Virus record (IMG/VR): IMGVR_UViG_3300048548_000772 | Coordinates: 1-20,770 of that record | Reading direction: 5' to 3' (one strand) | Length of the DNA: 20,770 nucleotides | Origin: a virus | Shown here: piece by piece, positions 7,810 through 19,999 of the stretch | How positions within the stretch are numbered: position 1 is the first letter of the stretch | How the letters are laid out: every line of letters starts with the position of its first letter | Program-made: the position numbers and the translations under genes | The notes under the pieces: generated by a model | Seen by the model: the letters and a program-made list of their open reading frames with translations, nothing else | Told to the model about the DNA's origin: nothing | Database searches by the model: none

Positions 7810-8859
7810 TTATGTAGGAATAATACTAAAGAACTCATCAGACTCTTCCTTGCCCACTCTGTTATTTTTATAATTAGAAAGGAATACCTCACTGCTCATA
7901 TGCCCCATCGTATCGAGAGCCCACTCAAAATCTTTCCAATACCCGTAGCTTCCAAATGAATGCCTTGCACCATTTGCAGGATAGGTAAAACCTTCACGAT
8001 AACTTGTTCCATGCTTGTACCCAAATGCACGTCCCGCCGCTAAAGCTCTCGCTTGACTAAGTGCATTATATGTAACGGGATTAACCATGCCCTTGCCATC
8101 CTTTGGTATCCACTCCCATAAGTTCTCGGGAGGAATAATCCATCGCTCCCTTCCGGTCTTAGTGCGTTCTGCCATTAAGCCTATACGCTTACCCCATTGA
8201 ATATCGGAATATCTGAGCATTTCCATTTCGATCTCAGCACGGATACCCGTGAAAAACATAACCGCCAATGCCGGTCGGTACTTTTTGTGAATAGCACCAA
8301 GTATTCCCCTAGTCTCCTCTACCGAGCAAATGCCTGGTAATTTAGCAAACTGCTTCTTTGTGGTTTCTATCTTCAGACCCTTATTTACCGTGGAATACCA
8401 ATCCTCTTTGTTTTGCCCGTAATCCTTGGATCCGCACCATGCCATAAAAATCTTAACTGCACCACCATACCCAAGCTTTGTTTTGTGCGACCATTTCCCG
8501 GAGTTCACGTATTTCATGTAATCCCCTGTTGTCACTTCACTAACCAATCGATCCTCCCCGAACCATCGCAAGAACTTCATAACCCGATCCTCGGTGGTTG
8601 CCTTTCCTTTCTGTCTTGGCTTGTGGTCGTTATCATTCCTTTTTCCGTAATCTAATATGTATTCATGGAATGCAACCGATAGAATTGTTTTGTCACCCGC
8701 GGGTTCTTTTCTGGACTTGCCTGCTATCCATTCATGCTCATCAAACATCTTCGCCTCGGCATAACTGTCGAAAAACTTTCTGTATCGCTTACCCGACTTA
8801 CGGATATTTATAACCCATCGATCCTTACCTCTAACATTTACTTTAGTTGGTTTTGCCAT
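7810..8859 (-). CDS. int: Tyrosine recombinase integrase
   Basis: 349 aa from ATG at 8859, preceded by AAGGG at a 6-nt distance; the frame is open to a GTG at 8898, but that extension only encodes the Gln-rich product of the GGGCAACA repeats. The N-terminal region (about 1-55) is an arm-binding-type basic domain, residues 56-170 a SAM-like core-binding domain, and 180-349 the catalytic domain. Catalytic residues seen are Arg207 (FFTGIRAEIEMEML), Lys234 (TKTGRERW), Arg299 (ANGARHSFGSY), His320 (MGHMSSEVF) and nucleophile Tyr330. The usual HxxR His is Asn296 here. It would insert the phage into the tRNA-Arg gene whose 3' half lies 150 nt upstream. A tRNA-type terminator separates it from attP, so it needs its own promoter in 8898-8945; none is convincing. 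Confidence 0.93.
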   Translation of the reverse strand: MAKPTKVNVRGKDRWVINIRKSGKRYRKFFDSYAEAKMFDEHEWIAGKSRKEPAGDKTILSVAFHEYILDYGKRNDNDHKPRQKGKATTEDRVMKFLRWFGEDRLVSEVTTGDYMKYVNSGKWSHKTKLGYGGAVKIFMAWCGSKDYGQNKEDWYSTVNKGLKIETTKKQFAKLPGICSVEETRGILGAIHKKYRPALAVMFFTGIRAEIEMEMLRYSDIQWGKRIGLMAERTKTGRERWIIPPENLWEWIPKDGKGMVNPVTYNALSQARALAAGRAFGYKHGTSYREGFTYPANGARHSFGSYGYWKDFEWALDTMGHMSSEVFLSNYKNNRVGKEESDEFFSIIPT

Positions 8860-8861
8860 TT

Positions 8862-8888
8862 GTTGCCCTTGTTGCCCATTCTGTTGCC
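8862..8888. repeat. GTTGCC repeats, left arm of attP
   Basis: GTTGCC occurs at 8862-8867, 8871-8876 and 8883-8888, with a degenerate TTTGCC at 8852-8857, spaced 9-12 nt. Two further copies in the same orientation lie at 9092-9097 and 9103-9108 on the other side of the attachment core. Clustered short direct repeats flanking a core match the layout of arm-type binding sites of lambda-like integrases. Three of them also encode the unlikely Gln-rich N-terminal extension of the int frame. Confidence 0.5.
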
Positions 8889-8945
8889 CATAAAACACTC
8901 ATATCGTGGTATATTTAGGTATAGAGTGGTAAAATATAAGTCTAC

Positions 8946-13120: not shown

Positions 13121-13683
13121 CTGAAGAATTAAAAGTCTCAATACGGATCAAAGGAAACGCAAAAAATTACCTAGAATGGTACTGCGATCAAGTTGATATG
13201 CTTCCCGCTCAAGTGCTTCGTGCGATGCTCGCAGATAAGATTTCATCTTTTCTCAAGTGTCCCCACGGTGTCCCCGCAGGGACACTTTCAGTCGAAACAA
13301 CTGATACTAGCGAAAACACCGAAGTGTCCCCACAGGGACACCTGCCTCGCGCACACACGGGAGATACTAATGATTTATCTTTAGATAAATCTAAAGAGTC
13401 CAAAGACGAATGTAGGTATTTTTTCAAGACATTCATTGGAATTATTAATTATAAGAAATTCCCCGAACGAGTATCGAAGGAAATAAAAAATAATTGGTCT
13501 GCGATATTGGAATCAAAAATGTCAGCACAAGAAATGGCAGAAAGCTTCAACCATTATGTCATGGAATCGAAAAAGGGAAATAGCATCCCAAGCCATCCGA
13601 ACTCATGGATCGCAGGTCACGGATGGGAAAACACAACGGAGGAGGAAACAAAAAATGAACCAACAGGAAATTATGACTTCTGA
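13117..13683 (+). CDS. Replication initiator / helicase-loader-like protein
   Basis: 188 aa from ATG at 13117. Residues 1-43 (LKVSIRIKGNAKNYLEWYCD, MLPAQVLRAMLADKI) resemble a ribbon-helix-helix DNA-binding unit. Residues about 44-100 are a Ser/Thr/Asp-rich linker. The C-terminal part (FKTFIGIINYKKFPERVSKE, then IPSHPNSWIAGHGWEN) resembles the end of phage replisome organisers and helicase loaders, which often close with HP.TWL...W. It is directly upstream of, and overlaps by 29 nt, the DnaB-type helicase gene, the usual order. The linker is encoded by an unusual cluster of inverted repeats (13257-13391), which suggests DNA-level function, as with the lambda origin inside gene O. Function is inferred from motif resemblance and context. 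Confidence 0.55.
   Translation: MTEELKVSIRIKGNAKNYLEWYCDQVDMLPAQVLRAMLADKISSFLKCPHGVPAGTLSVETTDTSENTEVSPQGHLPRAHTGDTNDLSLDKSKESKDECRYFFKTFIGIINYKKFPERVSKEIKNNWSAILESKMSAQEMAESFNHYVMESKKGNSIPSHPNSWIAGHGWENTTEEETKNEPTGNYDF
13257..13391. repeat. Inverted-repeat cluster and AT-rich palindrome, candidate replication origin
   Basis: GTGTCCC/GGGACAC forms two perfect 7-bp stems with 4-nt loops (13268-13285, loop CGCA; 13324-13341, loop CACA). A third GTGTCCCC half-site is at 13257-13264. About 30 nt further is an AT-rich perfect palindrome, GATTTATC/GATAAATC (13372-13391), overlapping another, TTTAGAT/ATCTAAA. Repeats followed by an AT-rich palindromic stretch inside an initiator-like gene parallel the lambda ori layout. 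Protein sequence here is a low-complexity linker. Confidence 0.45.
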
Positions 13684-15055
13684 AGAAATTTCAGATTACG
13701 ACGCAGAGAGAGGATTAATCTCCTGCACACAAGACGATGACGATACGCAGTACAAAATCTTTGCTAATGCGATTGAATCGGGGATTACTCACGATCACTT
13801 TCAAAACGAGAAATGCAAGCAGTATTGGCAAGCATTGGTGGTAGCGGAAAAGGCTGGCTCTTTCGGATTTGATGGAGCACTTGATAATTTACCGAAAGCA
13901 TTTCTTTCGGAAAACCCTTGGTTTATAACTGAAGTCCTCGGTGCTCACGATATTGCCTCTCTTGCTAAAGGAGAAAAGGCGATAAATAACCTTGTTAAAG
14001 CAAAGCAATACCGAGACTTAGCAAGAATATCAAAAGAGCTTAGAATGAAGGTGGAGGATGCTATTGCGATAAGCGGAGATGAACCCTTGCATTTAGCCAC
14101 AGCGACCGAATCCCAATTACAGGAAATAATAATTCCAAAAGGGGATACACTCAAAGATTCAAAGAAGCTTACCCATTCGACCATTGATATAATTAAGATG
14201 GCGATTACACAGGGTCCCGCTCGGATAAAGCCACATCTACCATGGCTTGAGCGTGGATTGGATGGTGGCTTCAAGAATGGACACATGATCGTTGTGGCAG
14301 CCCGTCCGGGTGTTGGAAAGACAACACTCGTAGTAAACACTATCTATCACGAGGCATTAAGGGGGAAGAAAACATTATTCTTCTCATTGGAAATGAAAGG
14401 TGAATACCTATGGGAAAAGCTAGGATTAATCAGAGCAGGGAAAGGACTTTCCTACAAGGGTGATGATAAGGTCATAAATGAAAGGAATGCCAAAGAGCTA
14501 ATGACCCATATTGAGGCATGTAGTGATCTTCCAATCTATATTGATGATAATGGAAATGCTACGATCTCTGATATTCGTGCAAGTTCAAAAGTAATGCACC
14601 GAAAGGTCGGATTAGACTGCATCGTAATTGACTACTGCACATTGGTTAAACCAGAGGATCCAAAAGTAAATCGAGAGCAACAGGTGGCAGAGATTAGCCG
14701 ACAAGCAAAATTATTGGCTAAGGAATTAGACCTACCTGTTTTCTTAATCGCTCAATTAAATCGAGATTCTGTTAAAAAAGGAGTGGAGCCACAACTTCAT
14801 GACCTTCGTGATTCAGGGCAGATCGAACAAGACGCAGATGTAGTCATCCTTATGCACCGAGATTATGTGCAAGGGGATAAAGAGGATACGAAGCTAATTG
14901 TAGCCAAGAACAGGTTTGGTGGGTGTGGGCACTCAAGGGATAAGATCAAGTTCAATGGAAGTGCCCAAACATTCTGGGAGGAAGAGCCGAGAGTGGCACC
15001 AAGACTTCACGATGAAAAATTTTATCAATACGAAAATGAGAAACCAAGAATATGA
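13655..15055 (+). CDS. Replicative DNA helicase, DnaB/RecA-fold type
   Basis: 466 aa from ATG at 13655, chosen for its strong AGGAGG 9-10 nt upstream; the frame is open further 5' but that part overlaps the loader gene. Residues 1-130 correspond to a diverged DnaB N-terminal helical domain. The ATPase core has Walker A at 216-224 (ARPGVGKTT), the LFFSLEM motif at 241-247, Walker B at 321-328 (DCIVIDYC), then FLIAQLNRDSVKKG and DLRDSGQIEQDADVVILMHR, all hallmark DnaB phrases including the Arg finger region. The C-terminus ends with KNRFGGCG and is typical. No primase domain is fused, so priming must come from the host or elsewhere in the genome. Confidence 0.93.
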   Translation: MNQQEIMTSEEISDYDAERGLISCTQDDDDTQYKIFANAIESGITHDHFQNEKCKQYWQALVVAEKAGSFGFDGALDNLPKAFLSENPWFITEVLGAHDIASLAKGEKAINNLVKAKQYRDLARISKELRMKVEDAIAISGDEPLHLATATESQLQEIIIPKGDTLKDSKKLTHSTIDIIKMAITQGPARIKPHLPWLERGLDGGFKNGHMIVVAARPGVGKTTLVVNTIYHEALRGKKTLFFSLEMKGEYLWEKLGLIRAGKGLSYKGDDKVINERNAKELMTHIEACSDLPIYIDDNGNATISDIRASSKVMHRKVGLDCIVIDYCTLVKPEDPKVNREQQVAEISRQAKLLAKELDLPVFLIAQLNRDSVKKGVEPQLHDLRDSGQIEQDADVVILMHRDYVQGDKEDTKLIVAKNRFGGCGHSRDKIKFNGSAQTFWEEEPRVAPRLHDEKFYQYENEKPRI

Positions 15056-15225
15056 GCAGTAAAAGTAAAGCAAAGCAAGGTGGTGCGTTTGGAGGACTCC
15101 GTGGGAGACGCAAGCGTGCTCAAATTAGATATTTAGCGGAAAGGGGCAAAAATATCACGAGCCCATCGTTACCCGGATCAAGATTAAAAATAAAGGAGGA
15201 TACAAATGATACACAAGAACAGTAG
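15052..15225 (+). CDS. Small basic protein after helicase gene
   Basis: 57 aa. Its ATG overlaps the helicase stop as ATGA. The sequence is basic and Gly-rich at the N-terminus (SSKSKAKQGGAFGGLRGRRK) with a polar acidic end, suggesting a nucleic-acid-binding or accessory peptide; no family recognised. The last 20 nt overlap the start of the next gene, whose strong ribosome binding site (AAAGGAGG) lies inside this frame. Without it there would be a 150-nt gap in a tightly packed operon, and the stop-start overlap supports its reality. Confidence 0.55.
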   Translation: MSSKSKAKQGGAFGGLRGRRKRAQIRYLAERGKNITSPSLPGSRLKIKEDTNDTQEQ

Positions 15226-15505
15226 AACATCATGGGAGGACTTAAAAGAATCCCTTAAAGGTAGGCATAAACAAATATGGAAAGCGTTTTCATCAACCGA
15301 TGGAGCACTTAGAGACAGGCAAGTTAAGGATATTCTTGACTTACCCGACATGAACTCTGTGAGACCAAGAATCACAGAACTTATAAATCGCGGGTTTCTT
15401 ATGGAATTAGACTCAGAAAAGTGCCCAGTAACCGGGAAAAAAGTGAGAAGATGCACGAAGTACCGAGGGCCAAATGTACACCCTCAAGCTTATCTAAATA
15501 TTTAA
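15206..15505 (+). CDS. Winged-helix DNA-binding protein
   Basis: 99 aa with a near-perfect ribosome binding site (AAAGGAGG, 6 nt before ATG). Residues about 30-70 (DRQVKDILDLPDMNSVRPRI, TELINRGFLMEL) form a winged-helix unit: helix, turn, recognition helix SVRPRITEL, and wing; then CPVTGKKVRRCTKYRG, a Thr-Gly-Lys/Arg-Lys-Val-Arg strand seen in phage winged-helix proteins. It sits between helicase and SSB, so it may act in replication or early regulation. The two Cys (CPVTGKKVRRC) are not in an obvious metal site. Confidence 0.7.
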   Translation: MIHKNSRTSWEDLKESLKGRHKQIWKAFSSTDGALRDRQVKDILDLPDMNSVRPRITELINRGFLMELDSEKCPVTGKKVRRCTKYRGPNVHPQAYLNI

Positions 15506-15525
15506 CCCTAAACTAAATAAAAAAT

Positions 15526-15879
15526 ATGAACGGAAAAATGCTATTCTACGGATTAATAACGCTAGTTGATGACCCTGAGGTCATCACTGTTGGGAAAGGC
15601 AACCTGTGTAAATTCAGAGGTGCTTGGAACGAAAAAAGGAAAGAAGAGAAGATTGCATCATTTGCAAACTTTGAGTGCTGGAATGAGTACAAGAACAACA
15701 TCATGATGCAGTACCTTAAAAAAGGTAAGTCTGCTCATGTGCGCGGTTCGATGGTGGAAGATTCCTATGAGAATAAGGATGGAGTAAAAATCAGAACCTA
15801 CAGGTTCCGAGTAGAAGACTTCGACTTAATTGATAGAATTGAGGAAAAATCAAATGATAAACCTCAACTGGATATTTAA
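15526..15879 (+). CDS. ssb: Single-stranded DNA-binding protein
   Basis: 117 aa, OB-fold SSB. The strands MLFYGLITLVDDPEVITVGK, ASFANFECWNEYKNNIMMQY and LKKGKSAHVRGSMVEDSYEN, then YRFRVEDFDLID, follow the SSB pattern (ANFECW.., KG..V.V.G.). The end EEKSNDKPQLDI is acidic, but lacks the classic DDDIPF tip used to recruit host partners. It coats single strands during phage replication and recombination. No Shine-Dalgarno is visible before ATG; the 20-nt leader is A-rich. Confidence 0.85.
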   Translation: MNGKMLFYGLITLVDDPEVITVGKGNLCKFRGAWNEKRKEEKIASFANFECWNEYKNNIMMQYLKKGKSAHVRGSMVEDSYENKDGVKIRTYRFRVEDFDLIDRIEEKSNDKPQLDI

Positions 15880-15881
15880 TC

Positions 15882-16004
15882 TTGCTCGAGCAGTTGTTAG
15901 ATTTACTTATTCTCTACCCGGGGGGGCACGCCGTTGTTGGCGTGTTCTTCTGGTGTGGGGTCGCATATCTCGGGTATACCATCGCGGTGGGATGGAGGCG
16001 GTGA
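15882..16004 (+). CDS. Hidden small membrane peptide (TTG start)
   Basis: 40 aa if started at TTG 15882, three nt after the ssb stop; no ATG is in frame, so the start is uncertain. The product is LEQLLDLLILYPGG, then HAVVGVFFWCGVAYLGYTIA and VGWRR: one transmembrane helix followed by a positively charged end, giving an N-out/C-in tendency. Codon 3' end overlaps a GTG as GTGA. A 57-aa minus-strand frame covers the same DNA and is the competing reading. The case for this frame is its clean membrane profile and its membership in a series of similar peptides in this operon. Confidence 0.4.
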   Translation: MLEQLLDLLILYPGGHAVVGVFFWCGVAYLGYTIAVGWRR

Positions 16005-16063
16005 ATCGTAAAACTGCGCTAAAGCAAGGCAAGCATCGGTCTCCATTTCTATATCGGGGTTGA
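16001..16063 (+). CDS. Possible 20-aa basic peptide
   Basis: GTG at 16001 overlaps the stop of the preceding membrane peptide as GTGA, with GGAGG just upstream (too close for ideal spacing). The product NRKTALKQGKHRSPFLYRG is basic. It may equally be untranslated spacer before the 16060 promoter-like sequence. Very weak support. Confidence 0.2.
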   Translation: MNRKTALKQGKHRSPFLYRG

Positions 16064-16098
16064 CATTGTAATTCATGTAACACATAAAAATGTGTGTC
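16060..16098 (+). promoter_or_regulatory. Candidate internal promoter with palindrome copy F
   Basis: TTGACA (16060-16065), 17 nt, CATAAA (16083-16088) predict a start near 16095, 8 nt before the 16103 ATG. A palindrome GTAACACAT/ATGTGTGTC (16077-16098, 6-7 bp stem ACACAT/ATGTGT) overlaps the -10, resembling the 22-nt operators upstream of late genes in its GTAACAC arm but not in its other arm. It could give separate control to the second half of the early operon. Confidence 0.4.
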
Positions 16099-16102
16099 GT
16101 TG

Positions 16103-16189
16103 ATGGGGACAATAATATTCGTAGTAATTCTTTTAACTTTGTGCAGTTGGCTATATGTGGGATCTGAAAACGATCATTCGGATGAATAA
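16103..16189 (+). CDS. Hidden 28-aa membrane peptide
   Basis: ATG at 16103 gives MGTIIFVVILLTLCSWLYVG followed by SENDHSDE: a single transmembrane helix (residues 3-19) with a short acidic tail, probably facing outward. Its stop overlaps the HNH start codon as TAATG. No good Shine-Dalgarno is visible. Such peptides in early operons are often toxic or membrane-targeting; function unknown. Confidence 0.45.
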   Translation: MGTIIFVVILLTLCSWLYVGSENDHSDE

Positions 16190-16467
16190 TGAAAAAGAGT
16201 TCATTAAAAAGAAAGACTCCACTTCGTCGCGTGAGCAAAAAGCGATCAAAGGAAATGAAAGAGTACAGCATCTTGAGGACAGAGTTTTTAACAAAGCTTC
16301 CTATTTGCGAAGTGTGTATGAAGGCACAGTCAACAGATGTGCATCATCGCGCGGGGCGGGGGAAACACTACCTTGATATCGATACCTGGTTATCTACCTG
16401 TCGACCATGCCATGATAAGATTCATAAAGAACCCAAGTGGGCTAGGGAGAAAGGATATTTAATATGA
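16189..16467 (+). CDS. HNH endonuclease, free-standing
   Basis: 92 aa. Basic N-terminus (KKSSLKRKTPLRRVSKKRSK), then an HNH core: Cys40-x2-Cys43, STDVHHRAGRG (His52/His53), Cys71-x2-Cys74-His75, and final His79 (CRPCHDKIHKEPKWAREKGY). Two CxxC pairs make a structural zinc site around the beta-beta-alpha metal fold. This compact form is common in phages in replication regions; it may process recombination intermediates or cut host/competing DNA. It differs from the HNH proteins beside terminase genes in context. It is coupled upstream by TAATG and downstream by ATGA. Confidence 0.88.
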   Translation: MKKSSLKRKTPLRRVSKKRSKEMKEYSILRTEFLTKLPICEVCMKAQSTDVHHRAGRGKHYLDIDTWLSTCRPCHDKIHKEPKWAREKGYLI

Positions 16468-16580
16468 AAGTATTACTTTTAATGATTGTATTACTCTTGG
16501 GTGCATGTGCCCATATTTGCGTTAAAGAATGTTGCCCAAAACCAGGGCATGGACCGTGCCCTATATGCAACAACAGATGA
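16464..16580 (+). CDS. Mini lipoprotein, Cys-rich, 38 aa
   Basis: ATG at 16464 overlaps the HNH stop (ATGA). Residues 1-14 (MKVLLLMIVLLLGA) form a signal peptide with lipobox LGAC; Cys15 would be lipidated. The mature 24 residues hold five more Cys plus Pro, Gly and His (CVKECCPKPGHGPCPIC). A lipidated, Cys-rich mini-protein is reminiscent of Rz1-type outer-membrane spanins in size, but its place in the early operon and lack of a partner next to it argue otherwise; exclusion of other phages is another possibility. It implies a Gram-negative host. The stop overlaps the next start as ATGA. Confidence 0.65.
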   Translation: MKVLLLMIVLLLGACAHICVKECCPKPGHGPCPICNNR

Positions 16581-16822
16581 AGGGTACACAAATACTTGAT
16601 AAAAACTTAATGACCCGAAGTATCGAGGAATTTAAGAAAGATGCAAAGAGTAAATTTCTTGCTGGAATTAAAGAACATAACCCAGACGGAACCAAGGGTA
16701 TGTGCATGATGACAATGAGGGATCGAGTGGGATCAGCAAAGGAAGAAGTTATAGATTTGTGGTTTTACTTGTGTGCCCTTGAGGACGGAATTGATGCAAC
16801 GCAGGATAAAGAGCTCTTATGA
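16577..16822 (+). CDS. Small MazG-like / NTP-metabolism-like protein
   Basis: 81 aa from ATG 16577, chosen because it overlaps the lipoprotein stop as ATGA; an upstream ATG at 16529 would lie inside the lipoprotein gene. The end DRVGSAKEEVIDLWFYLCAL has the EE..DL..YL helix seen in phage MazG-like pyrophosphohydrolase and related all-alpha NTPase proteins, but the full metal-binding set is not evident in such a short protein, so catalytic ability is doubtful. Coupled to the dioxygenase gene by ATGA. Confidence 0.5.
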   Translation: MKGTQILDKNLMTRSIEEFKKDAKSKFLAGIKEHNPDGTKGMCMMTMRDRVGSAKEEVIDLWFYLCALEDGIDATQDKELL

Positions 16823-17568
16823 ACTTAGATTTTTTAGATAAAGAAGATAGTCCGTATTTGATGAAGAATCATTTACTTCTCGTTCCTGCTGAGTGGATGC
16901 TTATTGAGGAAACCAGTAAGGCAATTGAGGACACGAAACCTGTGCTAAAGAAGTTCTACAAAGAATTAGACTACCGCAATTCAGCAACTCCTAGTGAGTT
17001 TCCTATACTTGAACATGTAACCGAGCACCTACCTGAGGTATTCTCTATACCTTTATTCTCCGACACTTTTTGCAAGGTAATGCTTGATGAAATAGAGAAT
17101 ATAAAAGCTACAAATGGGTTCAAAGTGAACGAAGGTGAAGACAAGGATGTGCAAATTGAAGAGTTTGTATTCTCTAAAAATTCCCCCGGGTGGTATCGAA
17201 CTATGTTTCAACTGATATATGGTAAGATAAATGTCATTTTTGACTCCATTTTCAGTCGAAAAGTGAATACAGGGGTGATTCAGCTAGCAAATTACAACCC
17301 AAAGGAGATTACGCAGACATCATGGCATCATGACGGCGGTGCTGACATTACGATGGTTGTGCCCCTTAATACGGGTGATTATGACGGTGGAGGCACTGAA
17401 TTTTGGAGAAAGGGGGAAGTTGACCCTCTTCCTAATGGTCACGCCTTAATATTTCCCACATTTTCCAATTTACACAGGGGTTTGCCCTTAAAATCGGGCG
17501 ATAGATACCTCTTTGTGTTTTGGCTTAAATTTGCACACGAGGAGAAGGCAGAAGATGACAATGATTGA
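16819..17568 (+). CDS. 2-oxoglutarate/Fe(II)-dependent dioxygenase (PKHD-type)
   Basis: 249 aa. The C-terminal jelly-roll domain has iron ligands His170-x-Asp172 in SWHHDGGADITMVVPLN, the conserved DYDGGGTEFW strand, distal His219 in NLHRGLPL, and Arg229 ten residues later (SGDRYLFVFW) for 2-oxoglutarate binding; LPNGHALIFPTFSNL is typical of prolyl-4-hydroxylase-like proteins. Residues 1-110 are a helical N-terminal part not recognised. It should hydroxylate a protein or nucleic acid using O2; the substrate is unknown. Such enzymes occur in marine phages. It is coupled by ATGA upstream and overlaps the next small ORF by 14 nt, so it is made with the early genes. Confidence 0.88.
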   Translation: MNLDFLDKEDSPYLMKNHLLLVPAEWMLIEETSKAIEDTKPVLKKFYKELDYRNSATPSEFPILEHVTEHLPEVFSIPLFSDTFCKVMLDEIENIKATNGFKVNEGEDKDVQIEEFVFSKNSPGWYRTMFQLIYGKINVIFDSIFSRKVNTGVIQLANYNPKEITQTSWHHDGGADITMVVPLNTGDYDGGGTEFWRKGEVDPLPNGHALIFPTFSNLHRGLPLKSGDRYLFVFWLKFAHEEKAEDDND

Positions 17569-17635
17569 ACTATTTTTATATGCGATATTCTTAATCGCTG
17601 GAGTTATAATACTAGACAACACACTAAACAGATGA
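17555..17635 (+). CDS. Hidden 26-aa membrane peptide
   Basis: ATG at 17555 (AAGG 6 nt upstream, GGAG further), with a second ATG at 17561, gives MTMIELFLYAIFLIAGVIIL followed by DNTLNR: one transmembrane helix. It begins inside the end of the dioxygenase gene and its TGA overlaps the next ATG as ATGA. It fills the only gap between two real genes. Function unknown. Confidence 0.5.
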   Translation: MTMIELFLYAIFLIAGVIILDNTLNR

Positions 17636-17898
17636 GTGAAGAAAAAAAAGAACTGTCGAAAGACGAAATGAAAAACGTTCCTATTGCTGAGGTTTTAATC
17701 TCAACAGGTATTCAATTAGCACAGGAGCGAGAAATGTCGCTTGGTGAGCTAGTTGGGCACTATGAGATCGCTAAGATTGAGGTGTACAACCGGATAACTG
17801 CTGGTGCGAAAGCTTCTCAACCTTCCGTGCCTGACGAAGGTGACGACAAGGTGCAGAAAATGGACGCTGCCCCAGTCGAAGTCGTGGATAAAGCCTAA
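17632..17898 (+). CDS. Last gene of early operon, hypothetical
   Basis: 88 aa. The folded part is residues 15-65 (VPIAEVLISTGIQLAQEREM, SLGELVGHYEIAKIEVYNRI), likely helical; the rest is acidic, Pro/Asp/Val-rich and disordered. No family recognised. Its last 128 nt overlap, in antisense, the SWIM-finger gene from the opposite strand. The disordered tail makes such overlap tolerable. Coupled by ATGA to the membrane peptide before it. Confidence 0.55.
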   Translation: MSEEKKELSKDEMKNVPIAEVLISTGIQLAQEREMSLGELVGHYEIAKIEVYNRITAGAKASQPSVPDEGDDKVQKMDAAPVEVVDKA

Positions 17899-18025
17899 AC
17901 TGAAAGTGCTCACATGAGCACTCTCCATATCCATCAAACTCGTCTAGGTCGACTAGGTGGATATTGTCTGGGTTTGTGAGGCTCGTCAGTAGATACCGGC
18001 GAGCCTCCATCCAGTCGCACTTCAC
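17771..18025 (-). CDS. SWIM-type zinc-finger protein
   Basis: 84 aa from GTG at 18025, which overlaps the stop of the preceding gene as GTGA; an ATG lies at residue 6. YLLTSLTNPDNIHLVDLDEF then GYGECSCEHFQFRLYP and APCRHLRQARKVEKL give the SWIM layout CxCx(n)CxH (Cys36, Cys38, Cys60, His62), a small zinc domain often found in short phage proteins and used for DNA or protein contact. Its 3' half overlaps the end of the plus-strand early operon in antisense, and no terminator separates the two. I prefer this frame as real because the zinc ligands and spacing are intact. Confidence 0.65.
   Translation of the reverse strand: MKCDWMEARRYLLTSLTNPDNIHLVDLDEFDGYGECSCEHFQFRLYPRLRLGQRPFSAPCRHLRQARKVEKLSHQQLSGCTPQS
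17905..17922. other. Hairpin at the convergent junction
   Basis: AGTGCTC/GAGCACT pair perfectly (7 bp, loop ACAT), 6 nt after the early operon stop codon. No T-run follows on either strand, so it is at best a weak or bidirectional terminator. It lies exactly over the CxC codons of the SWIM gene (TGC TCA TGT GAG CAC), so it may be a by-product of coding. Confidence 0.35.
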
Positions 18026-18912
18026 CTACCTAGTAGGGAATCAAGTGCAGAGCGTCTAGTAGGCGCACCTCGTGGTTGTGCGGGTTGTTGATAGAGCCTA
18101 CGCATATTTTCCATGTATGCACCTTGATCTAGTTGCCTACGCTCTTGTTCGGGCAGGTTCATTTTTTGAGGCAATTTCGCACCCTCCCCTTTTTCTTGGT
18201 AGTAGGTTTGACCGAAATTCTCCATGGCTGCTCCTACAAGATCAGAGTTATTGGAACCAGCTAAACCATTCCTTAAGTTCATGTTTACCTTAAAGTCATT
18301 AAGGGCCTCTTCATTATTTTTCACATACTGAATAAAGTCGTTTTCGTATGTTGGTTTACCCTGGTATCGCATAGCTGATTGCGGGCGTAAACTTGCATTC
18401 CTCATGGCGGTTGGGTTTGATCCCTCTGCAAGCTCTGGGAATAATGCACCTAATCCCATTTTAGGAATCTCGGGATCCTTGTATTGAGTATTTAGGATTT
18501 CCTGTAACCCACTAGATTCAAGCGGTTGAACTTCGTTTCCTGTTTTGTCATAGTAACTACCCACTTTCTTTATATCACGACCTTCACCTTTCCCGTGCAG
18601 ATTATAATGCTGCCTGCCCATCTCCGACATAGTTGTAGCGTTACCAAACCCTTGCCCGGATTCAGCAAGCGCCATAAGGTCTGAGTTTCTACGTACATAG
18701 TCATCAAACATTTGATCCTCACTTCCCATGTACGTATGCACGGGATTTACTCCAGGGGGTGCGTATGTTTTTGGAGCTGGTGCTGCGACGGGAGTTGTTG
18801 CTGTTGCTGGATCAGTAAAATTCACACTAGGAGCTGCAGGAGCTAGTCGATTTCTGAACCTCGGGTTATTAAAAAGCTGACTAACAGCACTCATCATTCC
18901 ATTACCAAACAT
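18022..18912 (-). CDS. Virion-type repeat protein with two Y..N.DL...HY..G.GEGR motifs
   Basis: 296 aa. After a Pro/Ala-rich N-terminal arm (AAPSVNFTDPATATTPVAAP), residues 69-112 read DDYVRRNSDLMALAES, then SEMGRQHYNLHGKGEGRD, and residues 192-245 repeat the layout (NDFIQYVKNNEEALNDF, then AAMENFGQTYYQEKGEGAK). This motif (YV.NN.DL....MG..HY...G..EGR) recurs in phage tail, internal and fibre-associated proteins; function of the repeat is not established. The rest is Gln/Arg-rich and helical. The position in a late minus-strand block with small membrane and basic proteins suits an internal virion or ejection protein. It is followed by the SWIM gene (GTGA overlap) and is 2 nt from the upstream gene. 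Confidence 0.6.
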   Translation of the reverse strand: MFGNGMMSAVSQLFNNPRFRNRLAPAAPSVNFTDPATATTPVAAPAPKTYAPPGVNPVHTYMGSEDQMFDDYVRRNSDLMALAESGQGFGNATTMSEMGRQHYNLHGKGEGRDIKKVGSYYDKTGNEVQPLESSGLQEILNTQYKDPEIPKMGLGALFPELAEGSNPTAMRNASLRPQSAMRYQGKPTYENDFIQYVKNNEEALNDFKVNMNLRNGLAGSNNSDLVGAAMENFGQTYYQEKGEGAKLPQKMNLPEQERRQLDQGAYMENMRRLYQQPAQPRGAPTRRSALDSLLGR

Positions 18913-18914
18913 AA

Positions 18915-19244
18915 TTATTGTCCTACTTTTGAAGATCCATGCCTTAATTTATCCACATGTTCATCTAGTTTATCTACCCTACTTTCGAGGTGCTGTATTT
19001 TCATATCCTGTGTGGCATCCGCGGGTAACGCACCAATTTCACCGCGAGGCCATTTTATCCTAAATTCCGAGTTCATTTCGACCTCATGCTTTATTCTAGC
19101 ATTATCATTTTCTAATTGTGATATGCTATTTTTGATGGTCACGTAGGAGTAACAAACAAAGCAAACGCCTGTAATTACTTTAATCATGAAGGCTAAATTC
19201 GCCTTCACAACTGAGTTCTCCCCTACTGCACCTTCTTCACTCAT
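18915..19244 (-). CDS. Membrane/coiled-coil protein (spanin- or holin-like architecture)
   Basis: 109 aa. One transmembrane helix (about residues 18-37, AFMIKVITGVCFVCYSYVTI), then two coiled-coil stretches (ISQLENDNARIKHEVEMNSE; KIQHLESRVDKLDEHVDKLR) linked by FRIKWPRGEIGALPAD. I recall similar proteins, with an RIKWPRGE-like phrase, in marine phages. The layout of one inner-membrane helix and a periplasmic coiled coil fits an Rz-like spanin, but no Rz1 partner overlaps it. Overlaps the MazG gene by 8 nt. Confidence 0.6.
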   Translation of the reverse strand: MSEEGAVGENSVVKANLAFMIKVITGVCFVCYSYVTIKNSISQLENDNARIKHEVEMNSEFRIKWPRGEIGALPADATQDMKIQHLESRVDKLDEHVDKLRHGSSKVGQ

Positions 19245-19527
19245 CTTTTATAAAAACTCCATCCATCATAACACCTTTGCGATCCTTTATGTCATCATAT
19301 GCTACACCAAGGCAGTCTTCCATTTCCACGCCATTACGCTCGCAGATGTTAATCATTACTACGAGCATATCGCCAATATCATCCATAATGTCTTCACCCT
19401 TGCATACGGAGTCGGATAACTCACCTAGTTCTTGAAGTAATTTCATGACCTGAGACTTGTCATCGGACCCAGATATAAGGTTACGATCTTTATGCCATTG
19501 AACGACTTTGTTTATAAGAGTGTTCAT
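19237..19527 (-). CDS. MazG-like nucleotide pyrophosphohydrolase
   Basis: 96 aa, all-alpha. The metal-binding layout is QVMKLLQELGELSDSV (Glu33, Glu36) then EDIMDDIGDMLVVMINICE (Asp49/Asp50, Asp53), matching the ExxE...(E/D)xxD set of the MazG/MazG-like superfamily. It hydrolyses NTPs to NMP and pyrophosphate; phage copies are thought to alter (p)ppGpp or nucleotide pools, or clean non-canonical dNTPs. It sits among late genes rather than with the replication genes. Coupled to the next gene by a 4-nt overlap (19524-19527). Confidence 0.8.
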   Translation of the reverse strand: MNTLINKVVQWHKDRNLISGSDDKSQVMKLLQELGELSDSVCKGEDIMDDIGDMLVVMINICERNGVEMEDCLGVAYDDIKDRKGVMMDGVFIKDE

Positions 19528-19775
19528 TTCATCGACTTCTTACCACGGCACTTCCACTTCTTGCGGGAAAGAGCATTAGCGCAGGGTGGTTTCTTGCATT
19601 TCTTGATGCCCGCACTTCTTGCGCAGTAAGCATCACCCTTCTTGGTGCCCGCTTGTATTCTGGCTTTTCCGTTCTTGGCTTTGCCTGCTTGTCCATAAGA
19701 TACCTTACGCTTACGCCCGGTCTTCTTATCGGTAACTACCTTTACAAACTTCTTACCTTTTGCTGGTTTTGCCAT
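19524..19775 (-). CDS. Small Lys/Cys-rich basic protein
   Basis: 83 aa, very basic. The segment YGQAGKAKNGKARIQAGTKK, then GDAYCARSAGIKKCKKPPCA and NALSRKKWKCRGKKS, matches small proteins I recall from marine T4-like and T7-like phages (GTK.GDAYCARS, LSRKKWKC). Four Cys could bind zinc or form disulfides. It might bind DNA in the virion or cell. It is one of four consecutive Lys-rich mini-proteins (19524-20382). Confidence 0.65.
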   Translation of the reverse strand: MAKPAKGKKFVKVVTDKKTGRKRKVSYGQAGKAKNGKARIQAGTKKGDAYCARSAGIKKCKKPPCANALSRKKWKCRGKKSMK

Positions 19776-19998
19776 GACTTTTTTTCAGGCACTTGCCTGC
19801 CTTTTTGCATTTAACGGGTGATGTACAGTTGCACTTATGTCCCTTAACGGGTGACTTTGACATCGAGTAACTTTTGACCTTAGATTTCGACATCGAGTAA
19901 CTCTTGACCTTAGAAGTTGGTTTTTTCTTTTTCATATTTTTTCCTATACTCATACCTGCTTTAAATGATTTTTTACATCCGCCTGATTTTTTATTCAT
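19753..19998 (-). CDS. Histone-tail-like Lys-rich protein with internal repeats
   Basis: 81 aa, rich in Lys, Ser and Cys. It holds two copies of KVKSYSMSKS encoded by a 30-bp tandem duplication, and two SPVK motifs (KSPVKGHKCNC, TSPVKCKKAGKC). S/T-P-x-K motifs bind the DNA minor groove in histone H1 tails. It ends inside the next gene by 23 nt. DNA condensation or binding is a reasonable guess; a shadow ORF is unlikely because the composition matches its neighbours. Confidence 0.55.
   Translation of the reverse strand: MNKKSGGCKKSFKAGMSIGKNMKKKKPTSKVKSYSMSKSKVKSYSMSKSPVKGHKCNCTSPVKCKKAGKCLKKSHGKTSKR
19855..19914 (-). repeat. 30-bp tandem duplication inside the Lys-rich gene
   Basis: The plus-strand unit beginning CATCGAGTAACTTTTGACCT (19861-19890) is repeated at 19891-19920 with few changes, giving two copies in frame. 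Nearby TTAACGGGTGA occurs twice (19811-19821 and 19844-19854), encoding the two SPVK motifs. The gene has clearly grown by internal duplication. Confidence 0.7.
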
Positions 19999-19999
19999 G

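Follow-up and report, generated by a model that had tools for sequence, protein, structure and literature searches.

Three of four very small open reading frames (ORFs) in an uncultivated phage are, in all likelihood, real and conserved genes: those of peptide 2, a lipopeptide and peptide 4. The fourth, peptide 1, is doubtful as a gene and lies across a conserved RNA hairpin. The explanation that best covers the whole locus is offered tentatively. It takes these three genes as genuine and their products as envelope-bound, gives the lipopeptide a part in exclusion and regards the peptide 1 locus as primarily a hairpin. Genes this small fall below annotation cut-offs. The lipoprotein signature, which is found in several phage lineages, singles out the lipopeptide as a concrete candidate for an early function in remodelling the envelope or in exclusion.

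The window analysed is an IMG/VR virus record of 20,770 bases. The plus-strand stretch studied starts with a DnaB-like helicase gene (13556-15055). It continues with the SSB gene (15526..15879; Pfam SSB 5e-9, phrog_44 4e-14), which served as synteny anchor, peptide 1, peptide 2 and an HNH endonuclease-like gene (16189..16467; phrog_740 9e-11). The lipopeptide gene follows, then an 81-residue ORF (16577..16822) that has an ATGA overlap at each end and no match in Pfam or PHROG, a 2OG-Fe(II) oxygenase gene (16819..17568; phrog_61 7.5e-31), peptide 4 and an 88-residue ORF not assigned to a family (17632..17898). An integrase-like ORF was recognized by eye on the minus strand (7810-8898). Comparison of positions 14500-20770 with a phage collection at the DNA level gave no near match. 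Against cultured phages, the proteins gave only distant matches (terminase and helicase) and no useful relative; the collection searched holds no cultured relative of this group. Genome contigs searched for a host or prophage yielded no relatives either. Related contigs were collected by searches with SSB, oxygenase and HNH; they share ancestry and many are fragments.

All four ORFs exist as described in an earlier note on this DNA, and so do the overlaps that join them to their neighbours. The stop codon of peptide 2 runs into the HNH start as TAATG (16187-16191), and ATGA overlaps connect HNH with the lipopeptide (16464), the lipopeptide with the next gene (16577) and peptide 4 with ORF 17632. 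Four plus-strand ORFs of 24–45 residues with a hydrophobic segment compare with 0.26 expected per shuffle, and none of 300 dinucleotide-preserving shuffles of positions 15000-17900 reached four. Peptide 2, HNH and peptide 4 are found on most related contigs long enough to include them, whereas the lipopeptide is kept in some and gives way to other genes in others. The frames of these three peptides are intact in relatives, as the earlier note had required, and no broken frames speak against them; the overlap of stop and following start is mostly retained as well. The ratio pN/pS, counted without correction across related sequences (intervals by codon resampling), is 0.67 (0.44-0.96; 12 sequences) for peptide 2, 0.40 (0.31-0.51) for the lipopeptide and 0.56 (0.39-0.76; 10–11 sequences) for peptide 4. 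Judged by these ratios, all three are under purifying selection. Hence the proposal of overlooked membrane-targeted genes stands for these three, on relatives and selection, and is weakened for peptide 1.

Within peptide 1, conservation is strongest in a plus-strand RNA hairpin (15912..15960). Its stem of about 22 bp contains one bulged U (MFE -34 kcal/mol, z -6.8). The block of SSB and peptide 1 is available in 16 distinct sequences, the window included, and over these the 14 core pairs are 99.1% formed. Three pairs show double changes, that is, the compensatory exchanges expected of a structural RNA element. The covariation score was reached by none of 500 shuffles, which leave the relatedness of the sequences in. 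G-U pairs occur at several positions of the plus-strand stem, and the minus strand gives a far weaker fold. The hairpin is single-copy, occupies the same place in related loci and is absent elsewhere. Like intrinsic terminators and RNase III-type intercistronic hairpins, it is a long, stable RNA hairpin right after a gene. In contrast to these, it has no U-tract (the stem is followed by UCGCAUAUC, and a terminator scan did not list it) and is contained in ORFs that remain open; Rfam gave no match for it. A literature search on HK022 put-like RNAs returned no papers. A search with the hairpin pattern for relatives without the ORFs added no contig to those found by protein, so RNA and peptide are not separable by that search. 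The SSB-linked hairpin is a new candidate for a regulatory RNA, and the case illustrates that a conserved RNA fold may be mistaken for a conserved membrane peptide.

Two reading frames cross the hairpin. Peptide 1 (frame A, 15882..16004, plus strand) is a 40-codon ORF for a possible single-TM peptide. In the window it starts with TTG and lacks a clear ribosome site; in many relatives it has 37 residues from an ATG or GTG at the aligned site. Frame B (15854..16063, plus strand) is a basic ORF that begins in the 3' end of SSB, overlaps peptide 1 in another frame and contains no stop in any of the 16 sequences. In relatives it starts at an ATG within the terminal part of SSB or of whichever gene replaces SSB. 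The chances are about even that the ORF of peptide 1 is a by-product and that the hairpin, frame B or both are the conserved entities. Besides the covariation and the TTG start, the selection ratios argue in this direction, with 0.61 (0.45-0.80) for frame B in the shared block against 0.78 (0.58-1.04) for frame A. Outside the hairpin the values are 0.59 (0.45-0.79) and 0.82 (0.63-1.10), respectively. The stop codon of frame A argues for a translated peptide, however, since it is kept in one column in 16/16 sequences by means of TGA, TAA and TAG (chance about 0.22 per sequence given frame B), as does the ATG or GTG present at the aligned start in 11 of the 16. Only the first ~43 aligned residues of frame B look constrained; its tail was rejected as coding (ratio ~1.1). 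The fourfold-site difference is 0.20 in frame B and 0.24 in frame A compared with 0.49 in HNH, and this far lower variation points to a constraint beyond a single reading frame, to which the hairpin contributes. In the overlap analysis of A with B, doubly synonymous sites are the most variable class, on only ~2.4 sites. Thus, the hairpin is firm and some translation across it is likely. The locus would primarily be a conserved RNA hairpin behind SSB, with possible translation of one or both of the ORFs that cross it.

The relatives fall into two groups. In one of them a dNMP-kinase-like gene separates the block from peptide 2. In the second this place is taken by ORF C, a small acidic antisense ORF (M..VN.D...E...LALA..YD) that lies between SSB and peptide 2 in the window (15903..16076, minus strand). 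The first ~25 codons of ORF C contain no stops and have a pN/pS of 0.54 (0.32-0.83) in 10 sequences from relatives without the kinase gene, where this N-terminal part looks coding. A role of ORF C in constraining the peptide 1 block was rejected: within this block it varies least at third codon positions and has a pN/pS of 1.27. The deoxynucleoside-kinase-like gene (MVKIIGLAGPKGVGKSTYANQLVF and variants) takes the place of ORF C, between the hairpin and peptide 2, in L009, L013, L017, L019, L021 and L023.

A promoter-like sequence, TTGACA-17-CATAAA (16060..16088, plus strand), lies upstream of peptide 2. The TTGAC element is kept in relatives about 40 nt upstream of peptide 2, at a near-constant distance. 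It could be read as mere Val-Asn codons of ORF C, but this was rejected because relatives without ORF C keep it as well. With a promoter at this position, peptide 2 would have a very short 5' leader or none. The element is followed by a palindromic, operator-like site, GTNACA-N10-TGTNAC (16077..16098), which has one mismatch in the window and is present, exactly or as a near match, in relatives with and without ORF C. Relatives of about 80 kb hold 8–9 exact copies each compared with 0 for a reversed-pattern control, and most copies lie within ~20 nt ahead of a start codon. Exact copies in the window are found at 656-677 and 20586-20607. The palindrome is also seen in contigs of L003, L010, L011, L012, L014, L015 and L018. 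The set probably represents a phage-wide regulon, with repressor operators over promoters that have very short leaders, and would then be a map of the regulated promoters of this phage. Many repressor-like sites over one phage genome are also known as the stoperators of Cluster A mycobacteriophages (PMC9283540, PMC6550527). Compared with the stoperators, the present putative operators are palindromic and sit right at promoter-like sequences, immediately ahead of start codons.

Peptide 2 and the peptides downstream of it are probably transcribed as a separate unit. The conserved promoter and operator separate them from the segment of SSB and peptide 1, so their placement in an early operon holds only in part; with operator control of its own, the unit is not established as early. 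A single operon of four like peptides, as the earlier note had pictured it, finds no support: peptide 1 lies on a hairpin crossed by competing frames, the others behind their own operator-controlled promoter. Within this unit of a phage with an integrase-like gene, peptide 2, the lipopeptide and peptide 4 would be translated along with their neighbours and directed to the cell envelope.

Peptide 2 (16103..16189, plus strand) has 28 residues, a single TM helix and an acidic C-terminal tail. Peptide 4 (17555..17635, plus strand; MTMIELFLYAIFLIAGVIILDNTLNR) has 26 residues and likewise a single TM helix. Both would reside in the inner membrane as single-helix peptides. PADLOC gave no match for any of the four peptides. 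In relatives, peptide 4 is usually followed directly by the homologue of ORF 17632. The stop of either peptide overlaps the start of the next gene in most relatives, and peptide 2 stands directly at the predicted transcript start. Such an arrangement is consistent with translated leaders that couple translation to the next gene, the peptides themselves being unimportant, and L002 has lost the TM part of peptide 2 and still has a short ORF at the site. This interpretation is nevertheless unlikely, as the residues of both peptides are under purifying selection and the TM part of peptide 2 is retained in L009 and L021, although the frame there extends past the HNH start.

The lipopeptide (16464..16580, plus strand) has 38 residues and consists of a signal with the lipobox LGA/C and a Cys-rich head, CAHICVKECCPKPGHGPCPIC. 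A search with the alignment of the lipopeptide revealed further homologues; 7 with the same neighbourhood and 5 from elsewhere add up to 12 distinct sequences from at least four phage lineages. They share the signature C-x3-C-x3/4-CC-P-x-[PQ]-x-H-G-x-CPxC behind the lipobox. Ten residues are invariant in all 12 (C15, C19, C23, C24, P25, H29, G30, C32, P33 and C35 in window numbering). Each homologue has G, A or S at -1 and Cys at +1, and position +2 is mostly Ser. With a short hydrophobic signal, a small residue at -1 and Cys at +1, the family has the features of putative signal peptidase II substrates. Pfam, PHROGs and NCBIfam contain no significant match. LPAM_1 matches the L157 sequence at E 0.0065, under the curated cut-off, and sub-threshold matches to Rz-like spanin, Cor and TraV run mainly over the signal peptide. 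A structure model has low confidence (mean pLDDT 68, pTM 0.27). By its sequence, the lipopeptide is a member of an undescribed family of small cysteine-rich phage lipoproteins. It is an accessory gene, to judge from its absence at the site in some relatives.

The lipopeptide genes that have annotatable neighbours stand among replication and recombination genes, and no lysis genes are found there. In the window these neighbours are HNH and the 2OG oxygenase. Elsewhere they are a Sak-like annealing protein, an exonuclease, a replication initiation protein and DnaB (L152), SSB and dNMP kinase (L158), a DnaA-like protein (L161) and an endonuclease VII-like gene (L160). Small DnaA-like genes occur near the lipopeptide at L002:6941-7264, L157:4282-4566 and L161:4321-4605 (only that of L161 matches phrog_27829; the others were recognized by eye).

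From the lipobox we infer export and acylation, and from the replication-gene neighbourhood an early envelope role. An envelope function is a reasonable reading of a lipobox and Cys-rich head kept across several lineages in such surroundings, and of the actions suggested in the earlier note, which also named host-membrane takeover and growth arrest, superinfection exclusion is the best guess. The lipopeptide would be made together with the DNA-replication genes. Processing by signal peptidase II would leave an acylated, Cys-rich peptide of about 24 residues. Given Ser or Ala at +2, its probable location is the outer membrane, and its fold may be fixed by disulfides or metal. By blocking or altering a component of the cell surface there, it would keep additional phages from infecting, in the manner of T5 Llp or Cor. 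T5 Llp, a small lipoprotein that this phage makes early, blocks the receptor from the periplasmic side (PMC9586334). Llp and Cor resemble the lipopeptide as small phage-encoded lipoproteins. They differ from it in that the lipopeptide has the CC-P-HG-CPxC head and no significant match to exclusion proteins; the Cor family phrog_1119 matches 2 of 7 members below significance (best E 0.026). Furthermore, the neighbour of T5 llp is reported to be the receptor-binding gene (PMC9586334), whereas the lipopeptide gene lies in a replication module. The lipopeptide is therefore not filed as a member of the Llp/Cor family, and T5 Llp is its best studied analogue. That it works in an exclusion-like way is possible, with somewhat less than an even chance. 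It is a good deal less probable that a Cys-rich lipoprotein family linked to replication modules blocks a receptor or the envelope in several lineages and that, in addition, the ~110 nt behind SSB combine a structured RNA with two overlapping plus-strand frames, an antisense gene entering in some relatives.

The pattern CC..HG..CPxC recalls a zinc knuckle, and the head might bind metal, the lipopeptide being a membrane anchor or a metal or redox factor of the replication complex and not an exclusion factor. The surrounding replication genes and a Prok-RING_4 match under the cut-off (E 0.005) are compatible with this; no significant zinc-ribbon match was found, and every sequence keeps the lipobox (Cys at +1, Ser at +2 in most), which points to export and makes such a role quite unlikely. 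Least probable of all is a role in lysis, as an Rz1-like outer-membrane spanin or another accessory that acts late with a separate inner-membrane partner: sub-threshold matches to the Rz-like spanin phrog_16495 (5 of 7 members, best E 0.057; L160, E 0.018) and TM plus coiled-coil-looking genes elsewhere in the window (18915-19244, 20363-20584) would fit, but the matches lie mainly over the signal peptide, the annotated neighbours are replication genes, no inner-membrane spanin partner adjoins in the window or in the lineages whose neighbours were scanned, and the head has only ~24 residues and is rich in invariant Cys. Rz1-type o-spanins are likewise short phage lipoproteins; the lipopeptide differs from them in its fixed Cys pattern and its place outside a lysis module.

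Four successive, very Lys-rich small ORFs are present on the minus strand of the window (19524-20382). They are preceded by the TM and coiled-coil-looking ORF 20363-20584, the start of which lies right at an operator copy.
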